Assembly (NCBI RefSeq): GCF_003351865.1
Contig: NZ_CP022242.1
Location: 310,001 to 374,000, forward strand
Direction: 5' to 3'
DNA from: Methanofervidicoccus sp. A16
GTDB taxonomy: Archaea > AGJL01 > Methanococci > Methanococcales > Methanococcaceae
Length of the DNA: 64,000 nucleotides
A model generated the notes under the pieces. It was not told where the DNA came from. It did no database searches and worked only from the letters and a program-made list of their open reading frames with translations. Every line of letters begins with the position of its first letter. Within the stretch, counting starts at the first letter, position 1. Positions 38,215 through 51,257 of the stretch are shown here, piece by piece. The position numbers and the translations under genes were made by a program.

Positions 38215-38676
38215 TTAATCTTTTAATCCTTTACATCCATTATCAAAATTGCAATCTCCACAGGCAACACATGTTAATCTGCCCTTTACCCCTACTCCCA
38301 CAGTATTCAGTCCAGTGATTATTTTTTTATTTTTAAAATTATCTGCAATACATTTCAAACCTGCTCCACATCCAAGAACAAGTATTGAATCAAAAGAGTT
38401 ATCATCAATATCCTCTGCCAATTTTTTAACTGCACTGTAATTACATAATCCCTCTTCTATAGTATTAGGTAATTTGTTATTTTTTAATATTTTAAACCCA
38501 TTTTTAATTAATATATCCTTCATCTCCTCAGTTTCTTTGGGGCCACCTGTTTTACTAATCCTTGCACATATTCCACAACCAATAACCATTAGAGTTTCAG
38601 TGTTTTTTTCTATCAATTTCCTTTTAATTTCCTCAATGTCTTTTTTAACTGTTATTGTAGGCATATTAGCCCTCAT
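38215..38676 (-). CDS. Small Cys-rich protein, MTHFR C-terminal-domain-like
   Basis: A 153-residue soluble protein with Cys motifs spread along the chain: GCGICARIS (about 34), ILVLGCGAGLKCIAD (about 100) and the C-terminal CVACGDCNFDNGC (about 136-148). The pattern resembles the small C-terminal module found beside methylenetetrahydrofolate reductases (MTHFR_C/MetV-like), which likely binds an iron-sulphur cluster. No MTHFR gene is adjacent. ATG at 38664 (fifth codon) is an equally good start. It stands between two repeat copies, next to the molybdate transport genes, and its role there is unknown. Confidence 0.6.
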   Translation of the reverse strand: MRANMPTITVKKDIEEIKRKLIEKNTETLMVIGCGICARISKTGGPKETEEMKDILIKNGFKILKNNKLPNTIEEGLCNYSAVKKLAEDIDDNSFDSILVLGCGAGLKCIADNFKNKKIITGLNTVGVGVKGRLTCVACGDCNFDNGCKGLKD

Positions 38677-39055: not shown

Positions 39056-40207
39056 TTATTTTTTAAATCCTCTACACTTACAGGATCTTTTTTTATCTAA
39101 ATCACATTTTTTACCACAGAGGGGATGAGGAGCATCCTTAGAGAATAGCACTACTACTTCATCCCCTATCTCATAATCCAATAAATTCCTTGTGGTAATG
39201 GAGTATAGATCCAAAGGACCGATATCTACAGTAACCTTTAATAAAGAGCCGTTGGGAATTATATCAATAACCTTCCCCCTTAGTATATTATAATCCTTTG
39301 GATATTTTTTAACTATCTCCCTTCTGTTTTTAATATTCTCCAATATAACATCCTCAGGATGGATACATAATGATATTTCCCTTACCCTTTCAAATATGGG
39401 ATATTTTTTAACCTTTATATTGAATTTTGAATTATTGTTATTTATTTCTACTATTGCATCGTCTTTTTCTAATTTTAATATAGTACCCTTTAAGATATTT
39501 TTTACTCCAACAAATTTTGCAACAAACTCATTTTTTGGATGGTAAAATATCTCCTCTGGCTTTCCAACCTGTTGTAGGATTCCCTTATTCATTACTGCAA
39601 CACTATCCCCTAACAACATGGCCTCTGTTAAATCATGGGTTACATATAGGCCTGTAATCCCCAACTTCTTTAAAATCTCCCTTAACTCCTCCCTTAATCT
39701 CTCCCTTAAAACAGGATCCAAGGCACTCAATGGTTCATCCATCAATAAAACACTTGGATCTATTACTAGAGCCCTTGCCAAGGCAACCCTCTGTTTCTGC
39801 CCTCCACTTATTTGGGATATTTTTTTATCCTTTATATGTTGGATTTCAAGTATCTCCATTATTTCATTTACCCTACTTTTAATTTCAGATTCCTGTAATT
39901 TTCTTATTTTCAATCCAAAGGCTATATTCTCATATACGTTTTTATGGGGGAATAGGGCATACTCCTGAAAAACAAACCCTACGTTCCTCTCCTGTGGGGG
40001 GTAGTTATCCATTAACTCGTCGTTTATTATTACACTTCCCCTATCCTGCTTTATCAATCCTGCAATGATCTTTAAAAGGGTAGTCTTTCCACAACCACTC
40101 GGTCCCAACAGTACCATTATCTCCCTATCCCTTACACTTAAATTTATTCCATTTAAAACCATCTGCCCATTAAATTCCTTTGATATGTTATCCAATACAA
40201 TCATCAT
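39056..40207 (-). CDS. modC: Molybdate/tungstate ABC transporter ATP-binding protein
   Basis: A 383-residue ATPase that energises molybdate uptake. Walker A GPSGCGKTT (about 34-42), signature ISGGQKQRVALARAL, Walker B VLLMDEPLSALD and the switch His of THDL are present. The C-terminal third forms the TOBE-type domain (about 240-365) that in ModC can bind oxyanion. It ends with a Cys-rich tail CGKKCDLDKKRSCKCRGF, uncommon for this family. ATG 40207 follows GGGGGGTAAA; the frame runs on to a TTG at 40219 without support. Last gene of modABC, which should supply Mo for the nitrogenase next door; WtpC (tungstate) is the alternative. Confidence 0.88.
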   Translation of the reverse strand: MMIVLDNISKEFNGQMVLNGINLSVRDREIMVLLGPSGCGKTTLLKIIAGLIKQDRGSVIINDELMDNYPPQERNVGFVFQEYALFPHKNVYENIAFGLKIRKLQESEIKSRVNEIMEILEIQHIKDKKISQISGGQKQRVALARALVIDPSVLLMDEPLSALDPVLRERLREELREILKKLGITGLYVTHDLTEAMLLGDSVAVMNKGILQQVGKPEEIFYHPKNEFVAKFVGVKNILKGTILKLEKDDAIVEINNNNSKFNIKVKKYPIFERVREISLCIHPEDVILENIKNRREIVKKYPKDYNILRGKVIDIIPNGSLLKVTVDIGPLDLYSITTRNLLDYEIGDEVVVLFSKDAPHPLCGKKCDLDKKRSCKCRGFKK

Positions 40208-40224
40208 TTTACCCCCCAAAATAC

Positions 40225-41013
40225 TTAGTTCTTTTTTAATTTTCCATAGCCTATTCTTTTAAATAGTGCCAAGATTCCAAAGGATATCAATATTAGAATC
40301 AGGGAGAGAATATTTGCAACCTCTCTATTTCCACTCTGGGCACTGTTAAATATGGCTATAGGCAAGGTACTCAAAAGACCGCTAACCATCATAGTGGCTC
40401 CAAATTCCCCCATTGCCCTGGCATAGGTAAGTATTACTCCAGATATGATTCCAGGTTTTGATAGGGGCAGGATTATCTCTTTAAATATCTCATACTCCCC
40501 TGCTCCAAGGGTCTTTGAGGCGTCAATTAGTGAGGGAGGTATATCCTCAAAGGAGGTTTTAACACTTCTTACCATAAAGGGAAGTGCCACAAAGGTTTGG
40601 GCAAGGATGATTGCAAAGGTACTGAACATTATGGTTATCCCTAAGAGGTGTAATGGATATCCAATTATCCCATACCTTCCAAAGGTTATTAGAAGTAAGT
40701 ATCCTGCAACGGTGGGGGGTATTACCAAGGGAAGGTTGATCATAATATCCAATACCTCTTTAAATGGAAACTCCTTATAGGTTAATAGATAGGCCAAGGG
40801 AATCCCGATAAAAAATGAGATTATGGTTGATATAAGGGATGTAATTACACTTAAAATCAAAGGGCCCAGTATATCCCGGTAATCGATAGAGACATTTAGA
40901 TTTAACCCTATATTGTATAGTAATGCCAAGAGGGGCATAACTATCAGTAGTGTAAATGCTCCAATACTTAGCCCCATTAAACCCTTCATTAGTAATGTAC
41001 CTATGTTATTCAT
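40225..41013 (-). CDS. modB: Molybdate/tungstate ABC transporter permease
   Basis: A 262-residue inner-membrane permease with about six helices. The cytoplasmic EAA-type loop that docks the ATPase is visible as DASKTLGAGEYEIFKEIILP (about 172-191), followed by PGIISG. It lies between modA and modC with short spacers (17 and 20 bases), so the three are one operon. ModB and WtpB are close relatives and cannot be told apart here; the nif context favours molybdate. Confidence 0.88.
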   Translation of the reverse strand: MNNIGTLLMKGLMGLSIGAFTLLIVMPLLALLYNIGLNLNVSIDYRDILGPLILSVITSLISTIISFFIGIPLAYLLTYKEFPFKEVLDIMINLPLVIPPTVAGYLLLITFGRYGIIGYPLHLLGITIMFSTFAIILAQTFVALPFMVRSVKTSFEDIPPSLIDASKTLGAGEYEIFKEIILPLSKPGIISGVILTYARAMGEFGATMMVSGLLSTLPIAIFNSAQSGNREVANILSLILILISFGILALFKRIGYGKLKKN

Positions 41014-41033
41014 AATCCACCCAATTATTATAA

Positions 41034-41852
41034 TTACTTAGAGATAACTACCACCAATTCACTCTTTGCAAATATTTTGTAATCCTCAACAAATCCATCC
41101 CTTTTAAGAATCTCCATATACCTTACACTTGGAGTAGCAAAGACATCTGCTCCATTTTCACCCCCCACTGCTCCCCCCTTTATTCTCTGGGTTAATGTAC
41201 CAGAACTTGCAAATAGGAAATTTACCCTACATCCAGTTTTCCTTTCAAATTCTTTTCCCATCTCTTTGAGCATATTTGCCATTCCTGCACCTCCATAAAC
41301 AACTATACTTCCATCGAGATGTTTTGGAGTGTAGGGCTTTGGATCCCTAACAGTGCCAATGTATCCGTATTTTTTTAATATCTCCTGTCCCTCCTTTGAA
41401 ATAATAAATTTTATAAATTCCTCTCCTTCTTTTTTATTATCACTATCCCTCAGTACTGCAATGGAGTATTCAGGAAAAACGTTTATTTCCTTTGGGATTT
41501 CAATGATCTTTACTTTATCTCCCTCCATAATTGCATCAGGTTTATAGATAAATCCTGCATCCACTTCCCTTGTAATCACCTTATCTAAGACTGCCCTAAC
41601 AGTAACATCCTTTGATACTATGTTATTCTCTATCTTTTCTGCAAGTTCTGGATTGGATTCTCTTAAATTATCTATAACTTCCATGGCATATCTTCCAGCG
41701 GGAACATGCTCTGGATTCCCTATGGCTATGGTTACCCCTTCCCTGCCTAAATCCTCAAACTTTGTTATTATTATGTTTCTACTGGTGGTACATCCAGAGA
41801 GTACTGTAGTAATAAGCAACATGGAAATGGATATTATCAATATTCTTTTCAT
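41034..41852 (-). CDS. modA: Molybdate-binding lipoprotein (substrate-binding protein)
   Basis: A 272-residue extracellular solute-binding protein. The N-terminus is a lipoprotein signal: KR, a hydrophobic stretch, then LSGC (lipid-anchored Cys about residue 21). Later segments (SIVVYGGAGMANMLKEM, FLFASSGTLTQRIKGGAVGGENGADVF) match ModA-type proteins, where Ser residues bind the oxyanion. The order of lobes looks unusual: the segment that normally opens ModA/WtpA (VYGGAGMA...FASSGT...GADVFA) lies in the C-terminal third, after the PDAIMEGDKV and GTVRDPKPY part. The gene is preceded by its own predicted NrpR operator, separate from the nif transcript. Confidence 0.85.
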   Translation of the reverse strand: MKRILIISISMLLITTVLSGCTTSRNIIITKFEDLGREGVTIAIGNPEHVPAGRYAMEVIDNLRESNPELAEKIENNIVSKDVTVRAVLDKVITREVDAGFIYKPDAIMEGDKVKIIEIPKEINVFPEYSIAVLRDSDNKKEGEEFIKFIISKEGQEILKKYGYIGTVRDPKPYTPKHLDGSIVVYGGAGMANMLKEMGKEFERKTGCRVNFLFASSGTLTQRIKGGAVGGENGADVFATPSVRYMEILKRDGFVEDYKIFAKSELVVVISK

Positions 41853-41904
41853 ACTGTCCCTCTACCTATTAGGAATGTAATATCCTGTATTGGTTAAATA
41901 ATAA

Positions 41905-41918
41905 GGAAGTTAATTTCC
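41905..41918 (-). promoter_or_regulatory. Predicted NrpR operator of modABC
   Basis: GGAAGTTAATTTCC is a perfect GGAA-N6-TTCC, the operator of the methanogen nitrogen repressor NrpR. It lies 53 bases before the modA start; TTATAAC near 41927-41933 (complement) could be the TATA element, which would put the site over the transcription start. Repression under ammonium and release by 2-oxoglutarate are family knowledge. Confidence 0.7.
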
Positions 41919-41982
41919 GGTATGGTGTTATAAAAATATAATTAATAACATAATAATAATTTTAATAATAAATTTTATAAAA

Positions 41983-43374
41983 TTAATAATAATTTTTAAA
42001 AATACTTAAACCCTCATAATCCTCTGACGATTCTATTAAAAGGTTTATAATATCCTCAGCAATTCTCAATGCCCCATTGTATCCTAACATTGGTTTTCTA
42101 TGGTAGCCATGCCTATCAACAACAGGGAATCCAACCCTTAATAAAGGTATTCTCTCTTCATTTGCTATATACCTCCCCCTATAATCTCCAATGATAATAT
42201 CAACAGGTCTCTTCTTTATGTAATTATGAAGTTGATATAGGTCGCCACCTTCAAATATAGTTATTTTTCCATTGTTTTCCATCGATATCTTTTTTATTTC
42301 AGAGATGAAGTGTGGGGTTTCAGTGTTGGATAAAACTGCAACAACCTCCATCCCCATTTCAAAGGCAAAATTTGTTAATCCAATAACCTTATCAGGATCT
42401 CCGAATATAGCCACCCTCTTATTCCTTAATACATCATTTCCATCCACTATGGCATCTATTGCATAGCCCCTATCCTCCCATAGGGACTCTGGAATTTCCT
42501 GGCCCGATATATTAGATAGTGTTTTTATAAAGTTATTGGTGTTTTCAATTCCTATTGGGAACTTTAAATTGTAGGATGGCACTCCAAGAGTTTCAAGATA
42601 CTTTGCTCCATCAATACCCTCCATTCCAAAGGATAAGGTAGATTTTGAATTGGGAGATTCCTCTATATCTCTAACTGTTGCCTCACACTTTGGAAATCTC
42701 TCCTTAGGAAGTCTCAATGGCCTATCCAAAGTGGTTATATCTGTAAGTAATCTATAACCTATATTCATTTTTCTTAGTATGTTCTTTATCTCTTTAACAT
42801 CCCCTGGATTGACAAATCCAGGTATTATGTTTATTTTATCTGACTTTAAGGAATTCCCTTCTAATTTTTTATTCTTCTCTTTATTCTTTTCAGTGATGGT
42901 TTTTATTATCTCTTTTAAGGTATTGTTGTATCCATCAATATGGGTACCCCTGTAGGAGAGAGTACTAACACCTACTAAGTAGGTTCCATTGTTATCTTTA
43001 TGAATATTCTCAGAAATTCTTTTTAACTCCCTTTGAATATCCTCTCCAATTATTTCACTTAATCCTGTGGTCATTGTTACAATTAAATCAGGATCTCTAT
43101 TCTCCAGTATATTTTTAATACTGGACTCTATAATATCACTTGCTCCATATATTGCGGAGATCTCATAAAAACCTGTAGTGGCAATTTCAACAGGTTCCTT
43201 AAAATGCTTTGCCAAGGTATTCTTTACATAATTGGCACATCCCTGGGAGCCATGAACAAGGGGAAATGCCCTGTATATTCCAAGTACTGCCATGACCCCT
43301 CCCATTAACTGATTCATCTTTGGAGGGTTTATAGTTAATGACCTTTCCTCCCTATTAATGACCTCTATTGGAAT
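41983..43374 (-). CDS. nifN: Nitrogenase cofactor assembly protein NifN
   Basis: A NifK paralogue that with NifE forms the scaffold for the iron-molybdenum cofactor. Conserved parts include FPLVHGSQGCANYVK, the GFYEISAIYGASD region and VAIFGDPDKVIGLTNF. An ATG at 43317 would give 444 residues, but it cuts into the family's N-terminal core: the 22 open codons before it encode REERSLTINPPKMNQLMGG, as expected for NifN. No ATG, GTG or TTG occurs there. ATT at 43374, placed after GGTGG, is the best start (463 residues). Alternatively a base was lost next to GTG 43382. It follows nifE by 13 bases and is the last nif gene; nifX is absent. Confidence 0.82.
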   Translation of the reverse strand: MPIEVINREERSLTINPPKMNQLMGGVMAVLGIYRAFPLVHGSQGCANYVKNTLAKHFKEPVEIATTGFYEISAIYGASDIIESSIKNILENRDPDLIVTMTTGLSEIIGEDIQRELKRISENIHKDNNGTYLVGVSTLSYRGTHIDGYNNTLKEIIKTITEKNKEKNKKLEGNSLKSDKINIIPGFVNPGDVKEIKNILRKMNIGYRLLTDITTLDRPLRLPKERFPKCEATVRDIEESPNSKSTLSFGMEGIDGAKYLETLGVPSYNLKFPIGIENTNNFIKTLSNISGQEIPESLWEDRGYAIDAIVDGNDVLRNKRVAIFGDPDKVIGLTNFAFEMGMEVVAVLSNTETPHFISEIKKISMENNGKITIFEGGDLYQLHNYIKKRPVDIIIGDYRGRYIANEERIPLLRVGFPVVDRHGYHRKPMLGYNGALRIAEDIINLLIESSEDYEGLSIFKNYY

Positions 43375-43387
43375 ATTCCCACCTTAA

Positions 43388-44728
43388 TTAATTTATAAGT
43401 TTCCAGATCTTTGAATTAATTGCTCCATGAACTTCATCTGCAAAATTTATAAAGCCATCAAACCCAACATAACTCTTTTTGCCTCCCCTCCCATATACAA
43501 AGGGCACCCCAAGTTTATGTACTAAATACCTTATGTGATTATCTGATATGACCACATCTGCATCACTTTCAACTATGGCCCTTTCCAGTTCGTAACTGTT
43601 GGGATTGTCCAGTACAACAGTTCCCTTTGGGATCTTTTTAAGTATTTCCTTGTAATTTTTCTCATTCCCAAAGTATGTGGCTACCCCTGCTATATCCATA
43701 TTGAGATCATTTTTAAGGGGATCGATATAGTTAAGTACCCTCTGAGCACCATGGGATATAAATACCCTTTTGCCCTTGAGGTTTTCCCTATAGAATTCCA
43801 ATTTTTCCTTTATTCTCTCCAAGTTTTCTATTATGAAGTTTTCAACTTTATCCTTATCTATGTTAAGGGCCTTACCTATGTTTCTCAGGGTCATCGAGCA
43901 ATTTTCAATACCAAAGAAATTCCCCTTAATATAGGGAATTCCATATTCCTTGTACATCATTTTGGCCAAATACATTGAACTTTTAGTACAATGTACAATG
44001 TTGATCTTTGCCCTATCCATTACCCTTATTTTGTCAATAGTTGCATTATCTGTAAATGAGCATAAAACTCTAATACCTATCTTGGATAGCATATCCTCTA
44101 TAATCTTAGCCTCCTTTACACTGGAAAATCCTCCTATAACATTTACATCATAGGGAGTACTGTGGAATTCCTCCTTTTTACTACCTATTATTTTAAAAAG
44201 TTGTCTATTTGCTATCTTGTGTCCCTCATTTTGAGTAGCCCCTTTAAAACCTGCACAGTCAAAGTATATAACAGGTATTCCAATTTCCTCACTGGCTTTC
44301 TTTGTTATTCCCTGTAAATCATTACCTATTAGCCCTGGAATACAGGTTTCATATACAAAAATTGCATCGGGATTGAACTCCTCTGAGGCCTTTAATATGG
44401 CTTTGTATAATTTCTCTTCACTATCGAATATAATATCCCTTTCTTGAATATCCGTTGTAAATCCGTATCCATAGGATTGGGATCGGTAATCCCAGGAGTA
44501 ATAGGCACAACCTATGGGAGAATGTACTAAATGTATAACATTTTTTATCTGGTTACATATTACCACCCTACATCCATGAAAGGTACATAGTCTCTCAGTG
44601 GAATTTCCAGGTTGGGTGTATTTGCAGTAGGATGAAGTATCAATCTCATGTTGTTCCCTGGCCTTTGAAGTATCCCTATTTTCAACGAGTATATTTTTAT
44701 TGCAATTTTCTTCTGTGTTATATAGCAT
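43388..44728 (-). CDS. nifE: Nitrogenase cofactor assembly protein NifE
   Basis: A 446-residue NifD paralogue and partner of NifN in cofactor maturation. The N-terminal core has the cluster cysteines in CKYTQPGNSTERLCTFHGC and SPIGCAYYSWDYRS, then YETCIPGLIGND and NIVHCTKSSMYLAKMM. A 35-residue polar N-terminal extension precedes the core. It ends with VGFDGFINFADEV. It is separated from the small unknown gene upstream by 132 A/T-rich bases, the widest gap in the cluster, which may contain a secondary promoter. Confidence 0.93.
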   Translation of the reverse strand: MLYNTEENCNKNILVENRDTSKAREQHEIDTSSYCKYTQPGNSTERLCTFHGCRVVICNQIKNVIHLVHSPIGCAYYSWDYRSQSYGYGFTTDIQERDIIFDSEEKLYKAILKASEEFNPDAIFVYETCIPGLIGNDLQGITKKASEEIGIPVIYFDCAGFKGATQNEGHKIANRQLFKIIGSKKEEFHSTPYDVNVIGGFSSVKEAKIIEDMLSKIGIRVLCSFTDNATIDKIRVMDRAKINIVHCTKSSMYLAKMMYKEYGIPYIKGNFFGIENCSMTLRNIGKALNIDKDKVENFIIENLERIKEKLEFYRENLKGKRVFISHGAQRVLNYIDPLKNDLNMDIAGVATYFGNEKNYKEILKKIPKGTVVLDNPNSYELERAIVESDADVVISDNHIRYLVHKLGVPFVYGRGGKKSYVGFDGFINFADEVHGAINSKIWKLIN

Positions 44729-44860
44729 ATTAATCCCATAAAAATTTTTTAAATTATAATAATTAAAAGTTAATTTTTCTTATAATGTAGAATCCTGTAT
44801 AATAGAATAGATAAATTATTATAATATTATTATAATAATAATTTTAAGCCCTAATTTTTA

Positions 44861-45184
44861 TTAAACCCAATTAATACCCTTAGATTTACAGATATTCCTT
44901 ATTTCCTCCACAATTTCCTCTGCAACTCCATATTTTTTAATATCCTCTAAACTATTTACAAACTCTGGTCTTCCATAACCCCCAGTGCCGTACTTCTCAA
45001 TAAGATATTTTGCCACGATTATGGGAATTCCTTCCAGGTTAGTTACCTGTACCAATACATCCCCTTCAACGGGCCTCTCTTCTTTCCCTATCTGAAATGT
45101 GACATATGTAAATTCATCACCGTCATTTACACATTTTCCTTTTTTATCATAGAACTTCACTAATCTAATTTTCATATCTGACAT
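44861..45184 (-). CDS. Undescribed small protein between nifK and nifE
   Basis: A 107-residue soluble protein of mixed alpha/beta look: a beta-rich N-terminal half (MKIRLVKFYDKKGKCVNDG, EFTYVTFQIG) and a helical C-terminal half (EDIKKYGVAEEIVEEIRNICKSKG). Two Cys (about 18 and 100) are too far apart for a simple metal motif. It does not resemble NifX, NifZ, NifT or the AnfG/VnfG delta subunits as I know them. It starts 15 bases after the nifK stop with GGATGATATC before the ATG, so it is surely co-expressed with nitrogenase. Its position between structural genes and the cofactor scaffold suggests a role in nitrogenase maturation or protection. Confidence 0.7.
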   Translation of the reverse strand: MSDMKIRLVKFYDKKGKCVNDGDEFTYVTFQIGKEERPVEGDVLVQVTNLEGIPIIVAKYLIEKYGTGGYGRPEFVNSLEDIKKYGVAEEIVEEIRNICKSKGINWV

Positions 45185-45199
45185 GATATCATCCTTTAC

Positions 45200-46606
45200 T
45201 TATTGTTGTTTTCGATCCCATGGAACCTTTGTATCCAGTATTGTATTTACTATCTCATCGAAGAACCTTAGTGATCCCATGTATCCCACTATAGGCCATC
45301 TGAAGTATCCAACTCTATCGTATATTGGGAAGCCCATTCTAACGAGTCCAATACCCATATCTCTGGCTATAGGCACTCCCCCCCTTGGATGTCCTATGAG
45401 TAGATCCACTTCCTTTTCCTTCACTGATTTCTCAAAGTCCCAAAGGTCTGAGAACTGTACCTCAATACCTACATTGTACTCCTTGGCTATGGCCTCCATC
45501 TCCTTCTTGTAGGTCCTTGAAGGTGTCTGGGTATTCACTACAACAGGTTTCATTCCAATCTCACAGCAGAACCTTGCCACTGCAACTACGAAGTCTGGAT
45601 CGCCAAATATACCTACTTTTTTGTCCATCGTGTAATGTATGGTATCGGCAATTGCATCTATGAGTTTGCCCCTTTCATCCAAAAGTTTATCTGGAATACT
45701 TCTTCCTGTAACCTTTGCAACATTTATTATAAAGTCATCGGTATTTTTTAGGCCAATGGGCAATCCATAGTATGCATCCACTTTGTACCTTCTTCTAAGT
45801 AACTCGGCTCCCCCCCCTCCTGCATCTCTACATAGGGCAAAGGTGGCCTTTGCATTTGGGGCATCTACAAACTCCTCTAGTTCAGTCCCACACCTTGGAT
45901 AGTGAGGTATTTCACCGATGGGTTCCCTAAGGGGCTGATAAAGGGTTTCACTTATATCAAATAGTACTGAGTAATCCTCTTTATCCTTTAACCCAAAGAT
46001 TTCAAGTATTCTTTTTATCTCAAGTATATCTCCAGGGTTAACACCAAATCCTGGAATAATGTTTATCTTCTCAGGTTCCTTTTCATTGTCCTTTTTTCCA
46101 AGAGTGCTAATAAAGGCCTTTGCAGCATTGTCATATCCAGTAACATGGCTCCCCTGATAGGATGGACAGTGAATTGGAATTATTGGCAGTTTTGCCTTTT
46201 CCTCACCTAACTCCCTGGCGATCTTCTTTTTAGCAGCCCTTATAAATGCCTCTATGTCATCTCCAATGGTTTCAGAGGAGCATGTTGTAATTACAGATAT
46301 TGCATCGGGATCATACCTTGCCACCAAGTTAGTTAAACCATCAACAAGGTTGTTCATACCACCGTATACTGCAGCATGTTCGTGAAAGGATGCGGTGGCT
46401 ATGGATACAGGTTCCCTAAAGTGTCTATTAAAGGCATATCTAGCATAGGTGGTACATCCCTGGGAACCTTGAACAAAGGGAATTGTACCCTTTACCCCAA
46501 GTGATGCCCACATTGCACCTATTGGCTGACATATCTTATTGGGATTAATTGTACCCTTTCTCTGTTTTTGAATATAGCAAATTTCTCCTGCTATAACTTC
46601 ACTCAT
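45200..46606 (-). CDS. nifK: Nitrogenase molybdenum-iron protein beta chain
   Basis: A 468-residue beta subunit. P-cluster ligands are in ICQPIGA, QGSQGCTTYARYAF and VITTCSSETIGDD; HEHAAVYGG and IGHPRGG are typical. With NifD it holds the P-cluster that passes electrons to the cofactor. The chain is shorter than that of many bacterial NifK, lacking their N-terminal extension, as usual in methanogens. The start overlaps the end of nifD by 8 bases, so the two subunits are translationally coupled. Confidence 0.95.
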   Translation of the reverse strand: MSEVIAGEICYIQKQRKGTINPNKICQPIGAMWASLGVKGTIPFVQGSQGCTTYARYAFNRHFREPVSIATASFHEHAAVYGGMNNLVDGLTNLVARYDPDAISVITTCSSETIGDDIEAFIRAAKKKIARELGEEKAKLPIIPIHCPSYQGSHVTGYDNAAKAFISTLGKKDNEKEPEKINIIPGFGVNPGDILEIKRILEIFGLKDKEDYSVLFDISETLYQPLREPIGEIPHYPRCGTELEEFVDAPNAKATFALCRDAGGGGAELLRRRYKVDAYYGLPIGLKNTDDFIINVAKVTGRSIPDKLLDERGKLIDAIADTIHYTMDKKVGIFGDPDFVVAVARFCCEIGMKPVVVNTQTPSRTYKKEMEAIAKEYNVGIEVQFSDLWDFEKSVKEKEVDLLIGHPRGGVPIARDMGIGLVRMGFPIYDRVGYFRWPIVGYMGSLRFFDEIVNTILDTKVPWDRKQQ

Positions 46607-48035
46607 TTAAATCCCCCTTATAGTTTTTGAATTTATCCTCGCCCTCCTTTAATACATCCCATATTGGATGGCATACAGCTTTGTAAATGTCCCTTGCAAA
46701 ATTTACAAATCCTCTATAACCTGCATAGGGACCCTCCTCATAGGAGTGTGAATTAATTGTTGGAATACCATACTTCCTGAATAGATATCTCTCCTTCAAT
46801 CCTACGAGCATAAAATCTGGATTGTAGGTTTTTACTGCCTCCTCAAGTTCAGGTTCATTTGGAGCATCTATAACGAGTATGTCCTTTATACCGATCTCTC
46901 TGAAGTTTTTATTTAACTTCTCATAATCATCTATATGGGAAAAGGTACAGCATGCTACAACATATTCAATTCCAAGATCCTTCATAGCCTTTACCCAGTG
47001 CCAGGTTCTTGGTCCCCCTACGTATACCATACAGGTTTTTCCCTCTAATTTTGATCTATAATACTCAAGTTTAGGTTTTATAATTTCCATTTCTTCCTTT
47101 ATAACTTGATCAACTCTTTCCTTTGGTAAATCCAGGGCTTCAGCAATCTCATAGAGTGATTTAGATGTCTCTGACAATCCAAAGAATGTAACCCTTACAT
47201 ATGGTATATCGAATCCATCCTTTATCATGTGGGCAATATACTCGGCTGATCTTTGACAATGCACTATATTCAACTTAACATCCAATAACTTAAATAGATC
47301 ATCCAAGGAGGCATTTCCTGTAAATGTTGCTACATGCCTACATCCAATCTTTTCAAGTAAGGGCTTTATTACACTAACATCCCAATCCATGTTGTATTCT
47401 CCAATTAATGCCACATCATAGGGAGTTTTTTCCTCTTCAGACATACGTTTTTCAGGGTATTCATTTATTTTTGACTTTAACCATCTATAGAATGTTACAT
47501 TGAAAACGTGGTGGCCTTTAGATTGGGAAACGCCACAGAAACCAGGGCTATTAATGGCAAGGGCCGGTTTTTTTGTATTTTTTTCAACATTCCTTGCTAC
47601 AGCTTCTACATTGTCTCCAATTAACGCCGTAGGACATGTTGTATATATAATGGTACCTTTTGCTTCTGGGAACTCCTCCATTGCCTCAAGACATGCTTTT
47701 TCTAAGGTTCTCTCACCACCATATACTATGTCTGATTCCTGCATATCACTACAGAAGCAATATCTTCTATGGAGTTCATTATCTGATAGATTCCTCCTTG
47801 TTCCCCAGGTATAGTAGGCACAGCCTATGGGCCCATGGACCATATGGATTACGTCCTTTATAGGTCCCCCTACCACTCCCCTTGATCCAGCAAATGCACA
47901 GCCCCTTTCAGTCATATCTCCTGGAACTGTGTTAGTATTACATGCTGGAAGAAGATTTTCTTCAGGATCATAAACATAGGTATGCTTCATCCTTTCTGGA
48001 ATAAATCTATCACAATCTAGTAGGATATACGGCAT
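46599..48035 (-). CDS. nifD: Nitrogenase molybdenum-iron protein alpha chain
   Basis: A 478-residue alpha subunit with the active site. P-cluster cysteines lie in CNTNTVPGDMTERGCAF, HGPIGCAYYTWGTRRN and TTCPTALIGDN. The cofactor ligands are Cys in NIVHCQRSAEYIAHM and His in INSHSYEEGPYAGYRGF; SQSKGHHVFN carries the catalytic His. All key residues are in place, so the enzyme should be active. No anf/vnf-type G subunit is nearby, in agreement with a Mo enzyme and the adjacent molybdate transporter. Confidence 0.96.
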   Translation of the reverse strand: MPYILLDCDRFIPERMKHTYVYDPEENLLPACNTNTVPGDMTERGCAFAGSRGVVGGPIKDVIHMVHGPIGCAYYTWGTRRNLSDNELHRRYCFCSDMQESDIVYGGERTLEKACLEAMEEFPEAKGTIIYTTCPTALIGDNVEAVARNVEKNTKKPALAINSPGFCGVSQSKGHHVFNVTFYRWLKSKINEYPEKRMSEEEKTPYDVALIGEYNMDWDVSVIKPLLEKIGCRHVATFTGNASLDDLFKLLDVKLNIVHCQRSAEYIAHMIKDGFDIPYVRVTFFGLSETSKSLYEIAEALDLPKERVDQVIKEEMEIIKPKLEYYRSKLEGKTCMVYVGGPRTWHWVKAMKDLGIEYVVACCTFSHIDDYEKLNKNFREIGIKDILVIDAPNEPELEEAVKTYNPDFMLVGLKERYLFRKYGIPTINSHSYEEGPYAGYRGFVNFARDIYKAVCHPIWDVLKEGEDKFKNYKGDLNE

Positions 48036-48068
48036 ATTATCACCTATTTTAAATTATTATATTTTCCA

Positions 48069-48455
48069 TTAATTTCCTATGGCATCCTTTCCCCTTTCTC
48101 CAGTTCTTATCCTGAGGGCCTCCTCTACAGGTAAAACAAATATTTTACCATCTCCAAAATTCCCAGTCCTATTTACCTTTGAAATTACTCCCACAACCAG
48201 TGGAACATCTTCATCCTCTACAACTATGGAAAGCAGTCTCTTTGGGATGTATTTAATAAACCTCCCCTCTTTTTCTCCTTCCTCTATTATTTTTTGAATA
48301 TCTACAACTTCAGGCATATTTACTGAAAAGTATCCCTTCTGTTTTCCCCTTCCAAAACATTCCATTATTGTTACTGCTGGAAAGCCCACAGCATCAAGAG
48401 CCTTTGCAGTTTTTGAAACTTTGTTCGGGTTTATTATCGCTATAACCTCTTTCAT
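48069..48455 (-). CDS. nifI2: PII-like nitrogenase regulator NifI2
   Basis: A 128-residue PII family protein. Its place between nifH and nifD is unique to the NifI subgroup. The N-terminal AIINPNKVSKTAKALDAVGFPAVT and C-terminal NFGDGKIFVLPVEEALRIRTGERG follow the PII fold; the T-loop is long and atypical (RGKQKGYFSVNM). With NifI1 it blocks dinitrogenase when ammonium is present and is released by 2-oxoglutarate. Thirteen bases downstream of nifI1. Confidence 0.93.
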   Translation of the reverse strand: MKEVIAIINPNKVSKTAKALDAVGFPAVTIMECFGRGKQKGYFSVNMPEVVDIQKIIEEGEKEGRFIKYIPKRLLSIVVEDEDVPLVVGVISKVNRTGNFGDGKIFVLPVEEALRIRTGERGKDAIGN

Positions 48456-48468
48456 ATCCTCACCAACG

Positions 48469-48786
48469 TTAAATCCCTTTTTCTCCTGTTCTAATGGTGT
48501 AGGCCTCTAGGATGGGCTGGATGAATATTTTACCATCTCCAAAATTCCCTGTTTTAGCAGAGGTTTTTATCAATTCCACAACCTCATTCACTTCATCATC
48601 ATTTACAGCAATTAACAACATAGTTTTTGGTAACTCCTCATAGAATACCTCTCCAACCTTTAAACCTCCCTGCTTTCCTCTACCTACAACGTTTATTTTT
48701 GTAAAAGCAGGATATCCTGCACCTTCCAATGCATCTACAACATCATCTACTTTATCTGGTCTAATAATCGCTTTTATCATCTTCAT
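48469..48786 (-). CDS. nifI1: PII-like nitrogenase regulator NifI1
   Basis: A 105-residue PII protein (IIRPDKVDDVVDALEGAGYPAFT, VVGRGKQGG, NFGDGKIFIQPILEAYTIRTGE). The short T-loop with GRGKQGGLKVGEV is characteristic of NifI1. It acts in a heteromeric complex with NifI2 in post-translational switch-off of nitrogenase. Located 89 bases after nifH, preceded by GGTGACAATATG. Confidence 0.94.
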   Translation of the reverse strand: MKMIKAIIRPDKVDDVVDALEGAGYPAFTKINVVGRGKQGGLKVGEVFYEELPKTMLLIAVNDDEVNEVVELIKTSAKTGNFGDGKIFIQPILEAYTIRTGEKGI

Positions 48787-48875
48787 ATTGTCACCATTTT
48801 TAAAATTTATATTCTATTGCAAAAATAGAGGATTTATTATTTTTATTTGATTTATTCTCATAATAATTATAATAA

Positions 48876-49739
<864 letters not shown>

Positions 49740-49754
49740 TCAGGTTTTATATTG

Positions 49755-49768
49755 GGAAATATAATTCC
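49755..49768 (-). promoter_or_regulatory. Predicted NrpR operator 2 of the nif operon
   Basis: GGAAATATAATTCC matches GGAA-N6-TTCC perfectly and lies 24 bases before the nifH start, within the leader. It is 33 bp from the other operator, about three helical turns, so the two lie on the same DNA face and could bind NrpR cooperatively. Confidence 0.75.
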
Positions 49769-49787
49769 TATATGTTATGGATAATAC

Positions 49788-49801
49788 GGAAATATATTTC
49801 C
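49788..49801 (-). promoter_or_regulatory. Predicted NrpR operator 1 of the nif operon
   Basis: GGAAATATATTTCC is a perfect GGAA-N6-TTCC and fully palindromic. It begins 26 bases downstream of the nifH TATA box, so it should overlap the transcription start and block polymerase when NrpR is bound. Confidence 0.8.
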
Positions 49802-49826
49802 TGTTAAATAGTAGTGCAGTATCTAC

Positions 49827-49834
49827 TATATAAA
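49827..49834 (-). promoter_or_regulatory. TATA box of the nif operon
   Basis: On the minus strand TTTATATA (complement of TATATAAA) is preceded by an A-rich BRE-like stretch (AATAGAAAAG). Transcription would begin about 25 bases later, near 49801, at the first NrpR operator. Confidence 0.7.
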
Positions 49835-49922
49835 CTTTTCTATTTTATTAGTTTAAATAAATAAAATAATGAATATATAAAGTTATAAATATATGATTTT
49901 ATAAATACATAAAGTTATAAAA

Positions 49923-50210
49923 ATCCTAATTCCCATCAAAAAAATTCTAATAAGAATAACAATAATTATAATAAAAGTAATATAAAAAGAAGAGATTAAT
50001 AAGAGATAAATAACCTCTCCTGGGATACTATGTAAGTGGAGTAGATCCTTCCTAACAGTCTGCTATTGTTAATTTTATTATTTTTTTTATTATTTAAATC
50101 ATTACTTTAATGGGCATTAAGGTTTATTTTATTATTCCTCTTAAGATTTTTATTATTCTTATTATAATAATTATTATTCTTCTAATCACAATCTTGATGG
50201 GAACTAGGGT
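49923..50210 (-). repeat. Dispersed intergenic repeat, inverted full copy R2 (288 bp)
   Basis: Bounded by ATCCTAATTCCCATCAA (49923-49939) and TTGATGGGAACTAGGGT (50194-50210). Read on the minus strand it follows the copies at 15034 and 51359 through arm, internal terminus-like motif and core (GACTGTTAGGAAGGATCTAC). It lies between the nif promoter and the epimerase gene, at the right border of the nif island, and is inverted relative to the copy 1.1 kb further on. The rest of the 546-base gap 49731-50276 is the nif control region and the epimerase leader. Confidence 0.8.
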
Positions 50211-50276
50211 TATAAAAATAATTAATAATTTAATATATAATTTGCAATAATCATTAATATTTAAAAAGTTGAGAAA

Positions 50277-51257
50277 ATGAGATACAATAACATCTTAATC
50301 ACTGGAAGTGCAGGGTTTATAGGGTTTCACCTATGTAGGGAGATACTGGAAAGTTATAACGACGTGGAGATCTTAGGTATTGACAACATGAACAACTACT
50401 ACAATCCTTTTTTAAAAGATATGAGGAACAATATTTTAAAAGAGTATAAGGGTTATACCTTCCTAAGGTTGGATTTTTCAGATTATCCTAAGTTAGTTGA
50501 GAGTTTAAAAGATAAGGATATCGATCTAATAGTCCATTTAGGGGCTCAGGCCGGGGTAAGGTATTCATTGAAGGATCCCTGGGCCTATGAAAGATCCAAT
50601 GTGTTAGGTACTATGAACATCTTTGAATTTGCCAGGAGATTCGATATAGATAAAGTAGTTTATGCCTCCTCCTCTTCAGTTTATGGTGGTAATAAAAAAA
50701 TTCCCTTCAGTGAGGATGACAGAACAGATAGCCCTATATCCCTCTACGCTGCAACGAAGAGATCCAACGAACTTATGGCATATACCTACCATCACCTCTA
50801 CGGTATAGAAATGGTGGGGTTGAGATTCTTCACAGTTTATGGGGAGTGGGGAAGGCCAGATATGGCGTACTTTAAATTTGCAAAGAGGATACTTTTGGGA
50901 GAGCCTATAGATGTTTATAATTATGGGAATATGGAGAGGGATTTTACTTACATATCTGATGTTGTAGATGGGATGATCTCTTCCATTGAGAGGAGTTTCA
51001 GTTATGAGATATTCAACCTTGGGAATTCAAAACCTGTAAAGTTGATGTACTTCATAGAGTTGTTGGAGAGGTATCTCGGTAGAACCGCTAAGAAGAACTT
51101 CTTACCTATGCAGGAGGGAGAGGTTCCAGTAACTTATGCCGATATAAGTAAAAGTAGGGAGTTGTTGGGGTATGATCCAAAGGTGTCTATTGAGGAGGGG
51201 CTTAGGAGGTTCTGTAGTTGGTTTTTGGATAATAGGGAGTGGGTTTTGAGGTTGTAA
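50277..51257 (+). CDS. NAD-dependent sugar-nucleotide epimerase, UDP-glucuronate 4-epimerase type
   Basis: A 326-residue short-chain dehydrogenase-type epimerase. NAD motif GSAGFIGFHL (from 10), SSSSVYGG and catalytic YAATK (Tyr about 158) are present. HLGAQAGVRYSLKDPWAY and RFFTVYGEWGRPDMAYFKF are the segments typical of the UDP-glucuronate to UDP-galacturonate group. It would act directly after the dehydrogenase at 36137, to which it probably was once adjacent. GTTGAGAAA precedes the ATG; two repeat copies flank the gene. Confidence 0.83.
   Translation: MRYNNILITGSAGFIGFHLCREILESYNDVEILGIDNMNNYYNPFLKDMRNNILKEYKGYTFLRLDFSDYPKLVESLKDKDIDLIVHLGAQAGVRYSLKDPWAYERSNVLGTMNIFEFARRFDIDKVVYASSSSVYGGNKKIPFSEDDRTDSPISLYAATKRSNELMAYTYHHLYGIEMVGLRFFTVYGEWGRPDMAYFKFAKRILLGEPIDVYNYGNMERDFTYISDVVDGMISSIERSFSYEIFNLGNSKPVKLMYFIELLERYLGRTAKKNFLPMQEGEVPVTYADISKSRELLGYDPKVSIEEGLRRFCSWFLDNREWVLRL

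Follow-up and report, generated by a model that had tools for sequence, protein, structure and literature searches.

A small gene separates nifK from nifE

The analyzed window, a 64,000-nucleotide stretch of the Methanofervidicoccus sp. A16 genome, carries a nitrogen fixation cluster in the order nifH-nifI1-nifI2-nifD-nifK-[hp1]-nifE-nifN-modABC (Table 1). The gene studied here, hp1, had been predicted from the sequence as a small open reading frame (ORF) inserted after nifK and before nifE and belonging to the nif operon, and both points proved correct: flanked by these two genes, an ORF of 107 codons with an ATG start occupies exactly positions 44861..45184 of the minus strand, preceded by a purine-rich leader (AAAGGATGATATC-ATG). 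The nifK stop codon lies 15 bp from its start, and 132 bp separate it from the downstream nifE. The next gene past nifN is modA (at 41852), which is not NifX-like. No Rfam elements were found in the region 40000-51000.

Table 1. Features of the nif cluster in the window, in order of transcription.
Feature	Position	Strand	Basis and remarks
Pair of exact NrpR operator-like sites (GGAAN6TTCC) ahead of nifH	49755..49801	+	Both sites (at 49755 and 49788) fit the search pattern without mismatch
nifH	48876..49730	-	Orthologs 73-93% identical, conserved order
nifI1	48469..48786	-	PII-type ORF, conserved order; G033 ortholog matches PII structures in the PDB
nifI2	48069..48455	-	PII-type ORF, conserved order
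nifD	46599..48035	-	Matches PDB nitrogenase alpha chains
nifK	45200..46606	-	15 bp upstream of hp1; 75-95% identical in all hp1-bearing genomes
hp1 ortholog	44861..45184	-	107 aa; ORF and 12 orthologs, directly following nifK in each case
nifE	43388..44728	-	Downstream of hp1, no operator-like site in between
nifN	41983..43317	-	No nifX after nifN

Besides the sites ahead of nifH, the pattern search returned an exact GGAAN6TTCC site at 41905, preceding modA, and one more exact match within nifK, at 45693, and none between hp1 and nifE. The motif is not enriched in the window, and only the position of the sites argues for a role as NrpR operators. The stretches before modA (41872-41918) and before nifH (49755-49801) hold exact or near-exact operator-like sites, which suggests that the mod and nif operons may be under joint nitrogen control.

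Several neighboring genes have features of their own. The molybdate-binding protein ModA (41034-41852, minus strand) is circularly permuted relative to the ordinary ModA of genome G007, and likewise relative to that of G023: the C-terminal half of the G007 protein aligns with residues 29-164 of the window protein and the N-terminal half with residues 183-272, and the window protein retains a lipoprotein-type signal sequence at its N-terminus. The ModA of G033 is collinear with the whole of the window protein (61%), so the window genome is not alone in having the permutation. The gene after modC (38215-38676, minus strand) encodes a cysteine-rich protein of 153 aa that has no Pfam match; G031 and G033 likewise have a counterpart behind modC, and the gene is possibly linked to nif/mod. 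Lastly, the top PDB match of the window NifD is 9spz (873 bits), followed by the vanadium nitrogenase protein VnfD of A. vinelandii (402 bits), and every MoFe alpha chain in the PDB scores below VnfD (at most 346 bits).

hp1 is a real, fast-evolving gene without a named protein family

Orthologs of hp1 were present in 12 of the 36 genomes of the phylum, directly 3' of nifK in every case, with a gap of 11-281 bp. The order-wide and phylum-wide genome sets are the same 36 genomes, and the exhaustive profile search that covered them revealed no further convincing member. For those pairs where it could be computed, dN/dS was 0.03-0.29, and hp1 is under purifying selection. With twelve orthologs in a shared position and these dN/dS values, hp1 is a real gene and more than a chance ORF. 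Mean identity was 49% for hp1, compared with 82% for NifK and 88% for NifH, and the pairwise distances of hp1 track those of NifK (r=0.84); its product is a real but fast-evolving protein.

That hp1 matches no named Nif family, as originally proposed, was confirmed by HMM and profile searches. Neither the window protein nor any of the 12 members could be assigned to a Pfam or NCBIfam family, the output being limited to sub-threshold noise (MCM winged helix, ErpA_rel, leuS), and searches of the PDB by sequence and by profile gave nothing credible. A match to PDB entry 8h2i was rejected as a repeat artefact. We also rejected an ErpA/A-type Fe-S carrier: NF033940 (ErpA_rel) was matched by 3/12 members at E>=0.02, with the window protein reaching 15 bits against a cut-off of 65, and there is no conserved cysteine; no ErpA_rel members were found in the order. 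Viral and plasmid collections contained no relative of hp1, and the scan of GTDB contigs, run solely with peptides from the window protein, is sensitive to close relatives only. An AlphaFold2 model based on three sequences (window, L001, L002) had a pLDDT of 41.5, too low for the model to be of use.

The hp1 family has been described in two other methanogens

The gene had been regarded as undescribed, which is not the case: it is a new ortholog of the hp1 family that was described and deleted in Methanocaldococcus sp. FS406-22 by Lie et al. 2022 (PMC8809328). In that strain, hp1-hp2-hp3-fd follow nifK, and hp4 precedes nifE. An in-frame deletion of hp1 left growth on N2 near wild type (data not shown in that paper), and removing hp1-hp2-hp3-fd together was not deleterious (growth curves at 75 deg C) and shortened the lag (PMC8809328).

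A second description concerns the 'nifX' of Methanothermococcus thermolithotrophicus, whose operon is nifHI1I2DKXEN (PMC9765008). Under diazotrophy nifI1I2HDKX were strongly induced, with log2FC values of 7.0-8.8, compared with 5.3 for nifE and 4.6 for nifN; the authors found no homology between this 'nifX' and the NifX of M. maripaludis, and suggested an association with the nitrogenase complex (PMC9765008). Genome G033 shows the same nifHI1I2DKXEN order with an hp1 ortholog 79% identical to that of the window, and by position and operon order the window hp1 is the counterpart of the M. thermolithotrophicus 'nifX'.

hp1 and nifX mark two nitrogenase lineages

Sixteen of the 36 genomes carry nifK or nifN, and the remaining 20 have no nif. 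A single NifDK lineage, with NifK 75-95% identical to that of the window, accounts for 12 of the 16, and exactly these 12 carry hp1. The other four belong to one genus (g2), which we infer from its operon and its NifX to be Methanococcus. Their nitrogenase is of a different lineage (NifK 44-47% identical), and a PF02579 NifX adjoins nifN; hp1 was found neither in these four nor in the 20 genomes without nif. Among the 36 genomes of the phylum, hp1 is thus confined to the nif clusters of thermophile-type Methanococcales (12/36). The proposed link to a heat-loving diazotroph holds in so far as all 12 genomes fall in this nif lineage, but it is not strict, as hp1 has been reported in the mesophile M. 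aeolicus as well as in M. okinawensis (PMC8809328).

Within the 16 nif-bearing genomes, hp1 and nifX are mutually exclusive. This pattern is one evolutionary contrast between two nitrogenase lineages and not a repeated replacement. The predicted absence of nifX was borne out: none follows nifN, and no PF02579 protein was detected anywhere in the window genome (1.50 Mb, 99.94% complete). The same search was negative in G003, G030, G031 and G033 (G031 being only 54% complete), and in other hp1-bearing genomes PF02579 proteins occur elsewhere in the genome. In the window genome NifB is short and lacks the C-terminal NifX-like domain: its match ends at model position 291 of 441.

This distribution, together with the lack of any PF02579 protein in the window genome, is what one would expect if the hp1 product functionally replaced NifX/NafY and carried NifB-co or FeMo-co between NifB, NifEN and NifDK, as the original prediction had it. 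NifX binds NifB-co via H35, and NafY likewise has a cofactor-binding histidine (PMC13128457). By contrast, the window Hp1 contains no histidine and none is conserved in the family; its two cysteines, C18 and C99, are not conserved either, and the family has no conserved cysteine. An hhalign comparison with 10 PF02579 sequences gave a probability of 0.3%, and no member of the Hp1 alignment matches PF02579. Moreover, hp1 is retained in genomes without NifN, a poor fit to a NifENX-type hand-over, and it is dispensable for diazotrophy in FS406-22 (PMC8809328); the NifX of M. maripaludis is itself dispensable (cited in PMC9765008). We therefore consider a cofactor carrier of this kind very unlikely.

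hp1 goes with nifDK and not with nifEN

Five hp1-bearing genomes (G003, G007, G014, G034 and G035) had no nifN match. In G014, hp1 lies beside nifK (1064049) and nifE is found ~217 kb away (844968), and in G034 nifE is on a different contig from nifK-hp1. That hp1 is kept without NifN, and stays beside nifK when nifE moves, ties it to NifDK rather than to NifEN. Among the accessory genes of the 12 genomes, hp1 is the sole one present in all of them; hp2, the second most frequent, was convincing in seven.

The hp2 family itself (e.g., L083:9457-9723 and L078:7558-7866) comprises proteins of about 85-100 aa with an MCxGEIG start and the motif VGDKIMVYNSY. It has no Pfam match and by eye resembles HypC-type hydrogenase chaperones; the gene follows hp1 in some genomes and nifN in others. 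In G029, nifE (L077:10422-11773) is split into two ORFs of 112 and 309 aa, owing to a frameshift or an assembly error.

A stable third subunit, comparable to VnfG/AnfG (the delta/gamma subunit of V-/Fe-nitrogenases), would agree with the similar size of Hp1, the strict adjacency to nifK, a transcript level like that of nifDK, and a window NifD that is closer to VnfD than to MoFe alpha chains. The genes for VnfG/AnfG sit between D and K. None of the hp1 members matched PF03139, and no genome of the order reached the cut-off of this model, whereas the control Methanosarcina did. In addition, the structure of NifDK has been solved from a protein whose NifK (9spz_B) is identical to that of the hp1-bearing genome G003 (100% over 462 aa), yet no Hp1 chain was found among PDB sequences, including the 9spz/9sq3 NifDK entries. 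This suggests that, at least in the 9spz/9sq3 preparation, Hp1 is no obligate stable subunit of NifDK, to which it may bind loosely or transiently. Given that FS406-22 also grows on N2 without hp1 (PMC8809328), we judge a third subunit to be improbable.

A proposed conditional accessory role at NifDK

The explanation that we favor, tentatively and with a little less than even confidence, is that Hp1 is a small conditional accessory protein of NifDK, involved in its assembly, stability or protection. hp1 closes a nifH-I1-I2-D-K-hp1 block, and its expression level in the window is expected to resemble that of nifDK, as it does for the M. thermolithotrophicus counterpart. The protein would act on the NifDK (MoFe-type) protein as a transient assembly, stabilizing or protecting factor whose help may matter under some conditions only, and it would neither carry a metallocluster nor take part in the NifE/N scaffold step. 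We infer NifDK as the physical target, and the kind of help, from linkage and expression. The original prediction had allowed for NifDK maturation, and some action on NifDK is indeed possible. The near-wild-type growth of the FS406-22 hp1 deletion fits a conditional role. Several points count against an accessory protein of NifDK: the solved 9spz/9sq3 NifDK comes with no Hp1 chain in the PDB, a regulator would show the same operon position and co-evolution, and loss of hp1-hp2-hp3-fd in FS406-22 even shortened the lag (PMC8809328).

Regulation is the main rival, though we regard it as rather unlikely. Hp1 might regulate NifDK or protect it conditionally, in NifI1/I2 switch-off or, in a CowN-like manner, upon exposure to CO, ammonium shock or heat. 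It shares an operon with nifI1 and nifI2, evolves fast compared with NifK, and its loss did not alter growth noticeably when cells were cultured steadily on N2 (PMC8809328). However, nifI1/I2 are present without hp1 in the Methanococcus lineage, and neither CowN nor any other named protector turned up as similar in the Pfam/NCBIfam searches. The harmless deletion in FS406-22, and the lag shortened by the four-gene deletion (PMC8809328), could also mean that hp1 is a passenger carried along with the nif cluster and of no use in nitrogen fixation. Against this stand its maintenance under purifying selection in 12/12 genomes across two families and its invariable position next to nifK, even where the rest of the cluster is rearranged, and we consider a passenger about as improbable as a third subunit.

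No nitrogen fixation is known at higher temperatures than that of this group of methanogens, which achieves it with a very small gene set. As the only accessory gene common to all examined members of this nitrogenase lineage, hp1 may be what a minimal, heat-stable NifDK requires in addition to the core genes. More speculatively, and on balance unlikely, Hp1 could be a new nitrogenase-associated protein that binds the NifDK of this deep-branching thermophile lineage and conditionally protects or matures it, needed where, as in the window genome, all NifX-type proteins have been lost; it would have gone unnoticed because testing was confined to one species at 75 deg C.

Comparison with known systems

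Like Hp1, NifX/NafY (PF02579) are small proteins encoded in a nif operon, and in M. maripaludis dispensable ones (cited in PMC9765008); they differ from Hp1 in family, in the cluster-binding histidine and in the location of the gene after nifN. AnfG/VnfG (PF03139) share with Hp1 a size of about 110 aa and a gene encoded with the catalytic subunits, and differ in that their HMM does not match Hp1, that hp1 follows nifK, and that the solved NifDK has no Hp1 chain.

The hp1 of FS406-22 is, like that of the window, the first gene past nifK, has no detectable motif and is limited to nif clusters. Its published gene order recurs in G007 (hp1-hp2-hp3(ATP-cone)-fd followed by hp4-nifE, the last two overlapping by 4 nt), whose hp1 is an ortholog of the window gene at 41-42% identity (E=1.1e-19). 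In contrast, the window hp1 stands alone, without hp2, hp3, fd or hp4 before nifE, which is followed directly by nifN, present here. The M. thermolithotrophicus gene has the same operon order and modABC nearby. Its name, 'nifX', is misleading, since no member of the hp1 family matches PF02579, and showing that hp1 is not NifX clears up this misleading gene name in the literature.
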